Translations under genes and position numbers: made by a program
Notes under the pieces: model-generated
Database searches by the model: none
What the model saw: only the letters and a program-made list of their open reading frames with translations
What the model was told of the DNA's origin: nothing
NCBI GenBank assembly: GCA_022766945.1
Contig: JALEOU010000069.1
Span: forward strand, 62,001 to 126,000
Origin: Fusicatenibacter sp.
GTDB taxonomy: Bacteria > Bacillota > Clostridia > Lachnospirales > Lachnospiraceae
Reading direction: 5' to 3'
Length of the DNA stretch: 64,000 nt
Shown here: one piece after another, positions 7,219 through 60,679 of the stretch
Numbering within the stretch: the stretch's first letter is position 1
Layout of the letters: every line of letters starts with the position of its first letter

Positions 7219-8199
7219 CTAGTTCTTCCTGCAGCGGTAACATGCTACATAATGTTCATTTCCAATATCGGTGAGCGGCGGCATTTCCTTTGCACACTGC
7301 TCTGTCGCATACTGGCATCTGCCGCGGAATTTACATCCCGGCGGCGTGTTGATCGGACTTGGAACTTCTCCTGCCAGACGAATCTTATTGGCATCTCTCT
7401 CCTGTTCAATCTCCGGATCCGGGATCGGAATCGCAGAGAGAAGCGCCTGTGTATAAGGATGCTGCGGATTTTCATACAATTCCTTGGACGTCGTAAGCTC
7501 CACCAGCGTTCCCAGATAAAGAACTGCCACACGGTCGGAAATATGCTTTACCATGGACAGATCATGTGCCACGAACAGATAGGTAAGTCCCATTTTCTTC
7601 TGAAGATCTACCAGAAGATTGACAATCTGCGCCTGAATCGATACATCCAGCGCGGAGATCGGCTCATCCAGCACGATAAACTCCGGCTGTACCGCAAGGG
7701 CACGGGCGATTCCGATTCTCTGGCGCTGTCCGCCGGAAAATTCATGCACAAAACGGTTCGCGTGCTCCATGGTCAGTCCTACCAGTTCCAGGTAATGATA
7801 AATCATATCCTGACGCTCTTTTTTGTCTTTTGCCAGATGATGAATATCGATTCCTTCTCCGATGATCTCCGCCACTGTCATACGCGGGTCCAGAGAACCA
7901 TAGGGATCCTGGAACACCATCTGGACTTTTTTCTTGAAATTCTGTTTCTCTTTTCCGCTGATGGTATGGACATCCTTGCCATCGTAAAGTACCTGACCGT
8001 CCGTCCTGTCATACAGGCCGATACAGGTTCGTCCGCAGGTGGTCTTGCCGCAGCCGGACTCGCCCACCATACCAAGGGTTTCTCCTTTATAAATCTGGAA
8101 AGAAACGTCATCCACCGCTTTGAGTGTGGCATTTCTGCCGACTTTAAAATATTTTTTCAAATGGCTCACTGAAAGGAGCACTTCTTTTTCCTCACTCAT
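7219..8199 (-). CDS. oppF: Oligopeptide ABC transporter ATP-binding protein
   Basis: GESGCGKTTCGR, EFSGGQRQRIGIARAL, LDEPISALD and C-terminal Cys-rich OppF/DppF tail; ATGA overlap with upstream gene. Confidence 0.93.
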   Translation of the reverse strand: MSEEKEVLLSVSHLKKYFKVGRNATLKAVDDVSFQIYKGETLGMVGESGCGKTTCGRTCIGLYDRTDGQVLYDGKDVHTISGKEKQNFKKKVQMVFQDPYGSLDPRMTVAEIIGEGIDIHHLAKDKKERQDMIYHYLELVGLTMEHANRFVHEFSGGQRQRIGIARALAVQPEFIVLDEPISALDVSIQAQIVNLLVDLQKKMGLTYLFVAHDLSMVKHISDRVAVLYLGTLVELTTSKELYENPQHPYTQALLSAIPIPDPEIEQERDANKIRLAGEVPSPINTPPGCKFRGRCQYATEQCAKEMPPLTDIGNEHYVACYRCRKN

Positions 8200-9224
8200 C
8201 GCTGTCCTCCCTTCAGATTGGGCATCTCCACTTTGGGCGCCATCGGATGATGCAGCCAGCATGCTGCCACATGGCCATCACCAAAATCGGTTGTTTCAGG
8301 CATCTCTTCCTTACAGATCTGCATACAGTACTTACACCTGGTGCAGAACGGACATCCCACCGGCGGATTCAGAAGATCCGGCGGAGTTCCCGGAATCGAG
8401 GCAAGCTCCTGTTTGTTTTCCAGATCCAGACGGGGTACCGACTGAATCAGCGCCCAGGTATACGGATGGCGCGGTGTGTAGAAAATGTCAGAACATTTAC
8501 CTTTTTCCACGATCATACCGGAATACATCACAGCGATATCCTGTGCGATATTTGCAACGACACCCAGATCATGGGTAATCATAATTACCGAAGTATTGTG
8601 TTTCTTCTGCAGGTCCTTGATAATATCCAGAATCTGTCCCTGAATGGTCACATCCAGTGCAGTGGTCGGTTCATCACAGATCAGCAGTTTCGGATCACAT
8701 GCAAACGCGATTGCGATCATAACACGCTGACGCATGCCGCCGGAAAACTCGTGCGGATACTGCCTGACACGCTTCTCAGGCTCAGGAATTCCTACCATGC
8801 GGAGCATCTCTACTGCTTCCGCAGCTGCCTCTTTCTTGCTCATATGTTTATGTACCATCAGGTTTTCCATGATCTGTTTGCCCACACGCATCGTCGGATT
8901 TAACGATGCAAGCGCATCCTGGAAAATGATGGCGCACTCGCCGCCTTTGTAGGCCTGCCACCGTTTTTTATCGTACTTGAGGATATTCTCCCCATTGTAA
9001 AGAATCTCACTGCCCTCTTTGATCTCACCCTGAGGTCCTTTGATCAGACCCATGATGGATTTTGCTGTTACGGATTTTCCACAGCCGGACTCGCCCACGA
9101 TCGCCAGGGCTTTACCGGTTTCCAGTTCAAAGGAAACACCGCGGACAGATTTCACTTCACCGGCATAGGTGTGATAGGAAACCCGCAGGTTTTTCACTTC
9201 CAGAATCTTACTGTTTTCGCTCAT
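8196..9224 (-). CDS. oppD: Oligopeptide ABC transporter ATP-binding protein
   Basis: GESGCGKSVTAKSIMGL, EFSGGMRQRVMIAIAFACDPKLLICDEPTTALDVTIQ. Confidence 0.94.
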   Translation of the reverse strand: MSENSKILEVKNLRVSYHTYAGEVKSVRGVSFELETGKALAIVGESGCGKSVTAKSIMGLIKGPQGEIKEGSEILYNGENILKYDKKRWQAYKGGECAIIFQDALASLNPTMRVGKQIMENLMVHKHMSKKEAAAEAVEMLRMVGIPEPEKRVRQYPHEFSGGMRQRVMIAIAFACDPKLLICDEPTTALDVTIQGQILDIIKDLQKKHNTSVIMITHDLGVVANIAQDIAVMYSGMIVEKGKCSDIFYTPRHPYTWALIQSVPRLDLENKQELASIPGTPPDLLNPPVGCPFCTRCKYCMQICKEEMPETTDFGDGHVAACWLHHPMAPKVEMPNLKGGQR

Positions 9225-9247
9225 TGGTTTTTCCTGCCTTTCCCATC

Positions 9248-10159
9248 TTATTGACGCAGCCGCGGATCCAGCGCATTGCGGAGTCCATCGCCCAGCAGGT
9301 TAAATGCCATAACAATCACACAAAGCACCAGACAGGGGAAGAACAGCTGGCTCGGATAGAAATCCATCGTCTGCTGACCCTGGGAAATCAATACGCCAAG
9401 ACTGATTTCCGGTGCCTTCAGACCGATTCCAAGGAAGCTAAGACCTGCCTCGGTGAAAATGAACTGCGGAATCGCGGTGGACGCATCCAGGATCAGAATA
9501 CTGAGCATATTTGGTACGTAGTGTTTCAGAATAATTCTTGATGATTTTGCACCCAGAACTTCTGCAGCGTAGACATATTCCGACTCACGCAGCTGCTTGA
9601 TCATACCGCGGACCTGACGGGCCGTGCTGCACCATGCGGTGATACTGAGTGCTACCAGAAGGGCAAACATGTTATTGCCCAGAACCATCATAATCAGGAT
9701 CGTAACCAGAAGACTGGGCATTGAATTGATAACCTCAATCACCCGCATCATGATATCATCCACCCAGCCGCCGAAATGAGCCATCACCGCACCGTAAATG
9801 GTTCCGACAACCATCTTCAGTGCCGTAGCCACCAGAGCGATCAGAATAGAAGCTCTCGCACCTACCCAGACACGGGAAAACAGATCACGTCCCATATTGT
9901 CTGTTCCGAACCAGTATTTTGCGCTGGCTCCCTGATTTTTTTCCGCAACATTCATACTGATATAGTCATAGCCTCTGATGTGCGGTCCGATGATTACCAT
10001 AATCACCATCAGAATCAACACGCCAAGAGATACCATAGCTACAGGGTTTTTCTTCAGTCGCCTCCAGGCATCCTGCCAGTAGGAGATCGTCGGCCGTTCA
10101 ATCCGGTTTGCTTCTTCCTGAGAAAAGCCTACAACTTTAAATTTATCAGGTGTTAACAT
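9248..10159 (-). CDS. oppC: Oligopeptide ABC transporter permease
   Basis: FGTDNMGRDLFSRVWVGARASILIAL and EAGLSFLGIGLKAPEISLGVLI. Confidence 0.94.
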   Translation of the reverse strand: MLTPDKFKVVGFSQEEANRIERPTISYWQDAWRRLKKNPVAMVSLGVLILMVIMVIIGPHIRGYDYISMNVAEKNQGASAKYWFGTDNMGRDLFSRVWVGARASILIALVATALKMVVGTIYGAVMAHFGGWVDDIMMRVIEVINSMPSLLVTILIMMVLGNNMFALLVALSITAWCSTARQVRGMIKQLRESEYVYAAEVLGAKSSRIILKHYVPNMLSILILDASTAIPQFIFTEAGLSFLGIGLKAPEISLGVLISQGQQTMDFYPSQLFFPCLVLCVIVMAFNLLGDGLRNALDPRLRQ

Positions 10160-10174
10160 CCGCTTTCCTCCCTC

Positions 10175-11137
10175 CTACCTGCTGCTGCCCGGCATGGAAA
10201 TCCGGGGATCAACGACTACATAAAGAATATCCGTGATAAACAGAACCACGATGTACAGCAATGCCAGAAGAACCGTCTCACCCAAAACAATCGACAGATC
10301 CTGATTATTTACCGCTGTCACATAGTACTGTCCGATACCGGGAATGGAGAAGATACTCTCGATAAAGAAAGAACCTGTGATACACATTGCCACAGACATA
10401 GGCAGCTGCGTCATAACCGGAATAAAAGAATTTCGCAGGATATGCTTACGGATCACAGCACCTCTGCTAAGACCCTTGGACTCTGCGGTCAGCACATAGT
10501 CCTGATTGATGACATCCAGCATGGAGGTCTTTAAAAGACGTGCATAGGTCGCGATATAGCTGAAACATCCGGTCAGCGTGGGAAGTACCGTGTATTTCCA
10601 TCCGCCGAACCACAGATCTTTGCCCGAAGGCCAGCCGATCGTCGGGAACCATCTGAGATTTCCCGCAAAGATTTTCTGCAGCATCAGTCCGAAAATCAGA
10701 TGAGGTATGGAAATCAAAAGTACCGAAAGACCCACTACCAGATAATCAGCTATGGTACCTCGCTTCATCGCAGCCAGAATACCCAGCAGCAGTCCCACCG
10801 TAACACCGAGGAGCATCTGCTGAAGACCCAGACGGGCAGATACCGGAAGGCGGTCATGAATCAGGCCGGAAACCGTCTGTCCTGCATAGACGAAAGATTC
10901 TCCGAATCTTCCATGACACATATCTTTCATTGTGAGCACGTAGCGCTCCATCATAGGCTTATCCAGCCCGTATCTCTCATAAAGCCTCTCTCTCGCCTGG
11001 GGCTGCAGCTTGTCGGCACGCTGAGTCAGCGGATCACCCGGTACAGCCTCCAGCAGGAAAAAGGTTGCCGTTGCGATCAGAAACAGTGTCAGTACCATTT
11101 CCAGAAAACGGCGCACACAATATTTTGCCATAAGCAT
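10175..11137 (-). CDS. oppB: Oligopeptide ABC transporter permease
   Basis: YCVRRFLEMVLTLFLIATATFFLLEAVPGDPL; ESIFSIPGIGQYYVTAVNNQD. Confidence 0.94.
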   Translation of the reverse strand: MLMAKYCVRRFLEMVLTLFLIATATFFLLEAVPGDPLTQRADKLQPQARERLYERYGLDKPMMERYVLTMKDMCHGRFGESFVYAGQTVSGLIHDRLPVSARLGLQQMLLGVTVGLLLGILAAMKRGTIADYLVVGLSVLLISIPHLIFGLMLQKIFAGNLRWFPTIGWPSGKDLWFGGWKYTVLPTLTGCFSYIATYARLLKTSMLDVINQDYVLTAESKGLSRGAVIRKHILRNSFIPVMTQLPMSVAMCITGSFFIESIFSIPGIGQYYVTAVNNQDLSIVLGETVLLALLYIVVLFITDILYVVVDPRISMPGSSR

Positions 11138-11228: not shown

Positions 11229-13013
11229 TCAGTTGCCTCTGCCCTCAATGTAAGTGATATACAGCTCCTGGCTTGCTCCGAAGGAAGATGTTCTGAAATC
11301 TTTTACCCAATTCTGAAGGAAGTACTCTTTCGTGGTGTAATAGATCGGGATCAGTCCGCAGTCTTCCACTAACAGAAGATTCTCAGCCTGCTCATAAATC
11401 TCAAAACGTTTTGCATTGTCGCCCTCTCCATTGAGAGAATCCAGCAGTGCATCGTACTCTGCATTGGAATATCCGCCGGTGGAAGAATAGATACCGCTGT
11501 AGAATACATCCAAATAATCCAGCGGATCATTGTAATCACTCCACCATCCACTGTTCATAATGTCATAATTTCCGGCATCTCTTTCTGCCTTGAACAGAGA
11601 GTAGTCACCAACGGTATTCAGCTCAACTTTGATGCCAAGCATCTGCTGCCAGATCTGCTGCAGATACTCACGCTCTGTCTGATTCTCCATGGTGGAACCA
11701 TAGGAAAGATAGGTAACGGTAATATCAGAAAGCGGAGTGGTAACACCAAGCTCATCCAGACCTTCCTGGAACAGTGCCTGCAGTTTCTCTGCATTTCCTG
11801 CGTACTCCTGATACTCTGCGGTCAGCGGCTCCTCAGACTGGCTGCGGTAGGAGCTTCCGTCAAATGTGATTGCCGGAGAGATCAGTCCATAAGCCGGTTT
11901 GTATCTTCCATACACTGCGGAAATCATTTCTTCACGATTTACTGCATAGCTCAGAGCTTTGCGGATTTTTGCGTTGCTCATCAGACCTGAAGAACCGCCG
12001 GTTGTAAAGTTAAATGCAAGATATACCGTTCCCGGATAATCGGAAGTGTTCAGCTGAACGTTTCCTGCTTCTGCTTCACCCTTATATTTTACAGAATAAT
12101 CACCGGAAGTCTGAAGCACATCCAGCTCTCCGTTGTCAAACATGGTAGCTGCGGTGGAATCCTCTGCTACCAGATACCAGTTAATGGCATCCAGATGCGT
12201 ATTCTCAGCATCCCAGTACTCTGTGTTCTTGGTCCATACCATCTTGTTGTCCTCAACCAGCTCGCTCATGCAGTACGGTCCGTTGTATACACAGAGAGTC
12301 CAGTCTTTACCCCAGTTATCGCCTGCTGCCTCTGCGATATCCTGACGTGTCGGATACAGCGGAGTAGCAACCAGCTTCGCGGTAAAGGTCGGGTCCGCAA
12401 TCTTTAAGGTTACTTCAAATGTATAATCATCAAGTGCTTTTGCCATAACATCATCTGCGGAACCTGTGCCGTTATAGTACTCCTCAGCACCTACCACATT
12501 GAAGATGAAGGATGCATAATCGTATCCGATGCTCGGATCCAGAAGTCTCTTCCAGCCGTACTCATAATCACGAGCGGTAACCGGCACTCCGTCAGACCAT
12601 TTTGCGTCCTGTCTCAGATGGAATGTGTAAACCAGCTGATCATCAGAAACGTCAACGCTCTCAGCGCCTGCAAGGATAAAAGTCTCTCCGTTCTCATCTG
12701 CAACATTGCGGTACAGACCTTCGTAGCAGTCAGCCATCATCCAGCGCCATCCCATGTCCTGCACATCGTAGTTGTTACCAAAAGAGGAAACTCTCAGGTT
12801 CAGTACCTGTGTATCTCCTCCGGTCGTTGTGGTATCAGATGCTGCAGATTCGGATGTAGATGACTCTGAAACACTGCTCTCAGATGTGCTTGCAGTATTT
12901 GCTGTGCTGCTTCCGGAAGCAGTACTTCCTGTGTCACCGCCACAGGCTGCAAGGCATCCTGCCATCATCGCACCGGTTAACACCAGTGCAAGGACTTTGC
13001 TTTTCTTGTACAT
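11229..13013 (-). CDS. oppA: Oligopeptide ABC transporter substrate-binding lipoprotein
   Basis: MYKKSKVLALVLTGAMMAGCLAACGG lipobox; Ser/Thr-rich linker; SBP family 5 sequence. Confidence 0.94.
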   Translation of the reverse strand: MYKKSKVLALVLTGAMMAGCLAACGGDTGSTASGSSTANTASTSESSVSESSTSESAASDTTTTGGDTQVLNLRVSSFGNNYDVQDMGWRWMMADCYEGLYRNVADENGETFILAGAESVDVSDDQLVYTFHLRQDAKWSDGVPVTARDYEYGWKRLLDPSIGYDYASFIFNVVGAEEYYNGTGSADDVMAKALDDYTFEVTLKIADPTFTAKLVATPLYPTRQDIAEAAGDNWGKDWTLCVYNGPYCMSELVEDNKMVWTKNTEYWDAENTHLDAINWYLVAEDSTAATMFDNGELDVLQTSGDYSVKYKGEAEAGNVQLNTSDYPGTVYLAFNFTTGGSSGLMSNAKIRKALSYAVNREEMISAVYGRYKPAYGLISPAITFDGSSYRSQSEEPLTAEYQEYAGNAEKLQALFQEGLDELGVTTPLSDITVTYLSYGSTMENQTEREYLQQIWQQMLGIKVELNTVGDYSLFKAERDAGNYDIMNSGWWSDYNDPLDYLDVFYSGIYSSTGGYSNAEYDALLDSLNGEGDNAKRFEIYEQAENLLLVEDCGLIPIYYTTKEYFLQNWVKDFRTSSFGASQELYITYIEGRGN

Positions 13014-13066
13014 AGTTTCTTCCTCCTCTTTCCTTTTTCACTGAATCAACACTCAGCAATGGATTG

Positions 13067-13114
13067 CAATGCAGTTCTGTGATCTCTTGCGCTTTAACGT
13101 GCCAAACTGCATTG
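13067..13114 (-). promoter_or_regulatory. Second inverted repeat in the oppA leader
   Basis: CAATGCAGTT (13067-13076) and AACTGCATTG (13105-13114), perfect 10-bp arms. Confidence 0.55.
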
Positions 13115-13116
13115 AA

Positions 13117-13155
13117 TAAAAAAAGACGCTAATCTTACTTTTCTATATTAGCGCC
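13117..13155 (-). terminator. Terminator-like hairpin with U-tract in the oppA leader
   Basis: Minus strand GGCGCTAAT atagaaaagtaag ATTAGCGTC then TTTTTTT. Confidence 0.75.
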
Positions 13156-13169
13156 TTTGCTTGACACTG

Positions 13170-13198
13170 ATATTATCACTATTATGATTAAATGTCAA
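13170..13198 (-). promoter_or_regulatory. Near-consensus sigma-A promoter for oppA
   Basis: Minus strand TTGACA - 17 nt - TAATAT. Confidence 0.75.
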
Positions 13199-13503
13199 TC
13201 TTTTTTCGACAGGTTTTTGCGCTATTTTTCATAAATCACCCTCAAATTTACTGCTTCGACGGCTAATTTCGAAAAGACCTTCGAAAAAAACAGCATATTT
13301 TTTCAGAAAAACTGCACAAAACCTGTTTTACTATGCAGGCAACGGACGCTGTGCATAAAACAGATCTCAACGCAGACACTATTTTTTGCACTGCGTATTC
13401 ATGGTATCATTATATACGCAGCTTTCCTTTTTGTCCAATTTAAAAAGCCAATAATCTGTAATAGGAAAAACTTTACGGAATAAGGACTCCCTTCGTCTTT
13501 ATT

Positions 13504-14730: not shown

Positions 14731-14914
14731 TATGCTCTCCCCATTTACTCCGTAATTTGTATTGCAGACCTGTACAGCCTTTTTCGAATCTCCTTGCTGT
14801 TCTGTACAGATATAAGAATGCTTACTTTTATTTAGCCTTATTTTTCATGATAACAAAAATTTCCAACATTGTAAATGATGTTTTTGAAGGAAAAGAAAGT
14901 GAACACTTGACTTC

Positions 14915-14928
14915 TGATAATATCAGTG
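14915..14928 (+). promoter_or_regulatory. Operator candidate TGATAATATCAGTG upstream of the cysteine desulfidase gene
   Basis: Identical 14-mer to minus strand 13178-13165 at the oppA promoter; contains a near-palindrome CTGATAATATCAG. Confidence 0.5.
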
Positions 14929-60514: not shown

Positions 60515-60679
60515 CAAAAGGCCCGCACAAAAGGCGGACCTGAATAACGATGTTCAAATCCCCTTATTGTTCGAAATCTTCGCTCAGGCTGGCACCTTCC
60601 CATTTTGAACTATCCGGTCAAAACAGGGGTTGCCGTGGTTTCACAGATCCTATGTATCTCCACCACTCTGAATAAGAGA
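60515..60679 (-). promoter_or_regulatory. SAM-I (S-box) riboswitch upstream of metK
   Basis: Minus strand CTCTTATTCAGAGTGGTGGAGATACATAGGATCTGTGAAACCACGGCAACC...GGAAGGTGCCAGCCTGAGCGAAG... followed by GGTCCGCC/GGCGGGCC-type hairpin with CTTTTGTTT. Confidence 0.93.

Follow-up and report, generated by a model that had tools for sequence, protein, structure and literature searches.

A promoter followed at once by a terminator upstream of oppABCDF

The window (the whole stretch of DNA analysed, 64 kb in length) contains on its minus strand a complete oppABCDF operon, comprising oppA, which encodes an oligopeptide-binding lipoprotein (SBP_bac_5; 11229–13013), and the remainder of the controlled operon, oppB, oppC, oppD and oppF (7219–11137). 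The leader features described here all lie on the same strand. Upstream of the oppA ribosome-binding site (AGGAGG, 13022–13027) is a promoter spanning 13170–13198, in which a -35 element (TTGACA, 13198–13193) is separated by a 17 nt spacer, ending in TGA at its 3′ side, from an extended -10 element (TGATAATAT, 13178–13170, with TAATAT itself at 13175–13170). Judging from this geometry, transcription would be expected to start ~7 nt past the -10 box, within 13161–13165.

Only ~5 nt separate the expected start site from the 5′ arm of an intrinsic terminator (13118–13158), which is built from a 5′ arm (AAAGGCGCTAAT, 13158–13147), a 13 nt loop (13146–13134), a 3′ arm (ATTAGCGTCTTT, 13133–13122) and a U tract of seven T (13124–13118). 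The arms pair over 12 positions and the folding energy of the region is -13.6 kcal/mol. A standard terminator scan missed this structure because its loop limit was 8 nt. When the 64 kb were scanned for a promoter scoring at least 10/12 with a terminator beginning 4–20 nt past the -10 box, one site was found, compared with none in 15 dinucleotide shuffles, and this single real site also has the A1/G4 hexaloop described below.

An earlier note on this DNA had described a strong promoter (TTGACA-17-TAATAT) with a near-immediate terminator on the minus strand, then a perfect inverted repeat ahead of oppA, and had seen no riboswitch, T-box or S-box core. Promoter and terminator are both present as described, and the second repeat (13114–13067) has perfectly matching arms, CAATGCAGTT (13114–13105) and AACTGCATTG (13076–13067). 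The lack of a known core is borne out by comparison with the Rfam covariance models, which returned nothing credible for the oppA leader at gathering or relaxed thresholds. A DNA similarity search with the leader against 397 family genomes gave short chance matches only. SAM riboswitch and T-box leaders, both found in this genome, are likewise cis-acting 5′ attenuators; they are large ligand- or tRNA-binding folds, whereas the oppA leader matches no Rfam family. One SAM riboswitch (RF00162, 71 bits) lies at 60561–60678 on the minus strand.

The terminator 5′ arm has an alternative hexaloop fold

A feature that the earlier note missed is an ANTAR-type hexaloop in the oppA leader. The terminator 5′ arm, AGCAAAGGCGCU, has a second possible fold, the mini-hairpin AGC-[AAAGGC]-GCU (13150–13161, minus strand), whose hexaloop (13158–13153) has A as its first and G as its fourth base (A1 and G4). 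Loop and 3′ stem strand of this hairpin are themselves the terminator 5′ arm, making the hexaloop and the terminator mutually exclusive at oppA; the mini-stem is worth -2.1 kcal/mol versus -13.6 kcal/mol for the terminator. In the known cases, ANTAR antiterminators recognise an A1/G4 hexaloop that overlaps and excludes a terminator, mostly ahead of nitrogen genes (PMC3369931), and we propose that the mini-hairpin serves as an antiterminator.

Conservation among oppA orthologues

Thirty good oppA orthologues were recovered, five of which carry the element. In these leaders, from the same genus (L061) and from other Lachnospiraceae (L063, L065, L067, L088), the promoter, the spacer and the hairpin beginning AGCAAAGGCGCY are kept in place, the promoter being identical in L061 and near-identical in the other four. 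Single loop changes are present in the hairpins of L061, L065 and L088; they fall at positions 2, 3 and 5 and never at 1 or 4, an observation that is weak alone as it would arise by chance in ~30% of cases. Pair 3 of the mini-stem is an A-C mismatch in L063, L067 and L088. Some oppA leaders do not have the hairpin, and many other genomes carry oppA in a cyuA-oppA operon, where it follows cyuA and has no separate promoter.

Conservation and covariation of both stems in relatives had been named in the earlier note as checks on the leader. The first hairpin is kept in oppA orthologues and the upper stem of the terminator covaries (see below); conservation does not extend to the second inverted repeat, whose downstream arm is altered even in the same-genus leader L061 and which is absent from more distant leaders. 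It was rejected as a conserved structure and is probably not part of the oppA switch.

Related leaders precede nitrogen genes across Clostridia

In Lachnospiraceae genomes, a promoter followed by a GCAAAGRCGC hairpin was matched 7 times, with 0 matches for the reversed control. The first pattern, which required TATWAT, missed the window's own leader, where the -10 box is TAATAT. A looser pattern gave more matches, and the non-coding ones were mostly situated right after a -10 box and right before nitrogen-related genes, among them those for glutamine synthetase III, amtB, pyrG, purF, gltB, asnB, gdhA, a glnQ-like ATPase and others. A covariance model added further leaders, including that of carA and, from this genome, the amtB leader and that of a LysR-type gene. 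Applied to other families of the class, the model recovered leaders of glnN, amtB and asnA. Because its weak matches include ordinary terminators (e.g. G054, L284, L201), only strong or hexaloop-checked matches were counted.

The full set of downstream genes comprises amtB, glnN, glnA, gltB, gdhA, pyrG, purF, carA, asnA/B, glnQ-like and oppA, and hairpins of the oppA design are located ~14 nt past the -10 box of those nitrogen genes in Lachnospiraceae and other Clostridia. The switch at the oppA transcript start is found again ahead of genes for handling ammonia and glutamine in gut Clostridia, and looks like a stripped-down ANTAR target. G occupies loop position 1 in two leaders (L276, L279); the corresponding loops of L335, L341 and L344, three glnA leaders outside the motif criteria, likewise begin with G.

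Two placements of the motif are recorded as separate observations. In this genome a leader of the same type (L203, C27) precedes a LysR-type regulator gene, possibly a nitrogen regulator, and at L194 and L279 the motif stands ahead of genes whose products look like circularly permuted ATP-grasp enzymes.

The hexaloop is enriched and its stem covaries

Leaders of glnA and glnN were selected by gene alone, and this set is free of motif-search bias. Here A1 together with G4 was found in 35 of the 87 hexaloop hairpins able to re-pair into a T-tailed terminator, versus 23 of the 391 unable to do so (Fisher p = 8e-15; chance expectation 1/16), and a terminator-overlapping A1/G4 hexaloop was present in 31 of 55 leaders. 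The stems in these gene-selected leaders are diverse (e.g. AGAC/GUCU, ACAAC/GUUGU, GGAC/GUCC and AAAAC/GUUUU). Among the intergenic matches to the search pattern, the first pair outside the searched region was formed in 45 of 46, with all four Watson-Crick types represented, compared with a shuffle mean of 29.4 of 46 (p ≤ 5e-5) and with 3/9 coding matches.

Across 49 leaders the covariation score was 0.54, versus 0.24 when shuffled and at most 0.21 with slid partners, and 98% of cells in the mini-stem were paired. Because this set was picked by inspection, the enrichment and outside-pair tests weigh more. RNAalifold applied to 22 leaders, drawn from a pattern that fixes part of the lower stem, returned a stem of 14 pairs, five of which, in the upper part, show compensatory changes; the lower part is nearly invariant.

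A single hexaloop at the transcript 5′ end

The ANTAR dual-hexaloop leaders targeted by EutV, NasR and AmiR (Ramesh et al. 2012, PMC3369931; Walshe et al. 2022, PMC8934654) share with the oppA leader an A1/G4 hexaloop, a stem of at least 3 base pairs (AGC/GCU, 3 bp, in the window), overlap with the terminator 5′ arm, nitrogen genes downstream and an ANTAR gene in the genome. In contrast, oppA-type leaders have one hexaloop, at the transcript 5′ end, and do not have P1, the second hexaloop 5–12 nt upstream. A promoter could be recognised for 93 leaders, and in 84 of these the hexaloop begins 9–20 nt (median 14) past the end of the -10 box, a distance so short that the transcript would start no more than a few bases from the hairpin, without space for P1. 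A proper P1 hexaloop was sought in six longer glnN leaders and none was found. For EutV, antitermination requires two hexaloops (PMC3369931, PMC8934654); its affinity for a single hexaloop is similar, yet both are needed for antitermination (PMC8934654). Since P1 is a defining feature, oppA-type leaders are not filed here as ordinary dual-hexaloop members, and on the basis of their sequences they would work like ANTAR leaders while being set apart from that group. The openly accessible literature searched contained no single hexaloop at a transcription start or other single-hexaloop leaders, no Lachnospiraceae ANTAR regulon and no family-wide regulon including oppA.

Upstream of glnN, L310 has two successive A1/G4 hexaloop elements with two T-tailed terminators; L304, also upstream of glnN, again has two successive A1/G4 hexaloop elements, the second lacking a clear T tail.

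An ANTAR protein is encoded with glnA

ANTAR genes were found in 118 of 130 family genomes. A strong motif match was present in 42 of the 118 genomes with an ANTAR gene versus none of the 12 without (p = 0.009, with just 12 ANTAR-less genomes). In 11 of the 12 loci read the ANTAR gene is directly downstream of glnA; of a further 38 loci, 34 had glnA in the expected position. This genome encodes two ANTAR proteins and has the glnA-ANTAR operon (L248; NitR-like protein, 182 aa). The leader of its glnA operon contains AAAAC-[AAGGGU]-GUUUU ahead of a terminator, which suggests that the operon is autoregulated through its own leader. In the same genome the glnN leader contains AAC-[AAGGGC]-GUU, and an amtB leader of the same type is also present. 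The linkage of an ANTAR gene to glnA and to nitrogen assimilation, familiar from NitR/glnA antitermination in solventogenic clostridia, is shared by the present case. That system is mentioned in PMC4676874.

The glnA-linked protein combines a degenerate receiver with an ANTAR domain. Its sequence matches EutV, Rv1626 and NasR, and its predicted fold (pLDDT 87.8) is nearest to EutV, Rv1626 and AmiR. It differs from EutV-type response regulators in two respects: Pfam gave no Response_reg match, unlike for the second, EutV-like ANTAR protein of this genome, and in the alignment the phospho-acceptor (aspartate) motif is absent, while the predicted fold is still receiver-like. Of the EutV residues that contact RNA, E160, K147 and M172 are kept in the NitR-like protein and Y164, R142, N173, R175 and R177 are changed.

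A model for the oppA leader and its alternatives

We consider it likely that the oppA leader operates by nitrogen-responsive ANTAR antitermination, through a single hexaloop at the transcript 5′ end and without P1. Starting from the computed features (promoter, terminator, exclusive hexaloop, covariation, gene distribution and glnA-ANTAR adjacency), we infer that a protein binds, which way the nitrogen signal acts and how that protein is switched, as follows. RNA polymerase would start a few bases ahead of AGCAAAGGCGCU, and by default the nascent RNA would form the terminator, such that transcription ends after ~45 nt. Under nitrogen shortage, an ANTAR antiterminator, most likely the glnA-linked NitR-like protein (L248), would bind the hexaloop as it emerges from the polymerase, and the bound hexaloop would sequester the terminator 5′ arm, allowing read-through into oppABCDF. 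Besides glnA-nitR itself, the same switch would govern amtB, glnN and numerous further nitrogen genes; peptide uptake would therefore be wired into the nitrogen regulon. The earlier suggestion of a compact attenuator is well supported by the conserved terminator, its covarying upper stem and the covarying alternative fold of the 5′ arm. The purpose then given to it, peptide uptake, is too restricted, since glutamine, ammonium and amide-transfer genes also have this element in front of them.

An attenuator could also be relieved by a factor other than an ANTAR protein, if another RNA-binding protein or trans-acting factor recognised the 5′ arm and blocked the terminator. The conservation of AGCAAAGGCGCU beyond the needs of a 3-bp hexaloop hairpin is consistent with such a factor, as are the several changed EutV RNA contacts in the glnA-linked protein; however, the mini-stem covaries through all four pair types, A and G are specifically enriched at loop positions 1 and 4, and the ANTAR gene adjoins glnA, whose own leader has the same element, and we regard this explanation as distinctly unlikely. 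It is more doubtful still, to the point of being improbable, that the hairpin acts without antitermination control, as a 5′-end RNA stabilizer with a leaky terminator or as the source of a short abortive RNA. Stabilizing hairpins are typically located at the 5′ end of messages, as here, and high expression is common among OppA-type proteins, but the conserved T tract, the covarying alternative hexaloop and the concentration of the element at nitrogen genes would be left unexplained. The short abortive sRNA once proposed for this leader may be a by-product, and accounts for neither the covariation nor the gene distribution.

The remaining alternative concerns the DNA. An operator-like palindrome, GTGATAATATCAG (13167–13179, minus strand), lies across the oppA -10 box, and a second, CTGATAATATCAG (14913–14925, plus strand), lies in the cyuA promoter; both are candidate operators of the GntR/FCD regulator encoded between 14107 and 14730, the neighbour of the two promoters. 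A similar palindrome pair is present in the divergent promoters of five other genomes, and a GntR/FCD gene adjoins the pair wherever the neighbourhood could be read. oppA could then be controlled chiefly at its promoter by this regulator through GTGATAATATCAG, with the terminator being minor or decaying at this gene. The recurrence of the palindrome in several genomes, at the promoters of oppA and of cyuA, its presence also in Faecalibacterium relatives that do not have the hairpin, and the weakness of the oppA mini-stem would all fit, and we rate this explanation as unlikely while giving it some weight. Against it, five other genomes retain the terminator and hexaloop, altered by point changes, and control at the DNA and at the leader can coexist; a second, DNA-level control of oppA through the candidate palindromic operators is likely.

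Returning to nitrogen-responsive antitermination, we lean towards a broader proposal in which Clostridia, chiefly gut Lachnospiraceae, would run a nitrogen regulon by single-hexaloop, start-site antitermination within the first 45 nt of the transcript, with an ANTAR protein, co-expressed alongside glutamine synthetase, whose switching does not depend on phosphorylation, and with no recruitment hairpin. If true, the general nitrogen control of a major group of gut bacteria would be readable from sequence, and peptide uptake would be tied to ammonia and glutamine status. Natural single-hexaloop leaders would also be at hand, allowing tests of why EutV requires two hexaloops and of what a minimal ANTAR antiterminator consists of. 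The question raised is how a regulator encoded in the glnA operon, with no phosphorylation site, would sense nitrogen; by analogy with Bacillus, it may do so by contacting glutamine synthetase.

Other features upstream of oppA

Part of a dispersed repeat with the consensus core CGTCTGCGTCGAGATCTATTTTCTGCACAGCGTCCGTTGCCGTCTGAACAGTAAC lies upstream of the oppA promoter at 13338–13377 (minus strand). The repeat has ~30 copies in the genome (among them L003 and L005–L030), and the relative G005 lacks it at this position. Upstream of this repeat is a second promoter-like site (11/12, 13437–13409). RNA from that site (13225–13437, minus strand) folds better than its shuffles (z = -3.6) and is possibly a small RNA.
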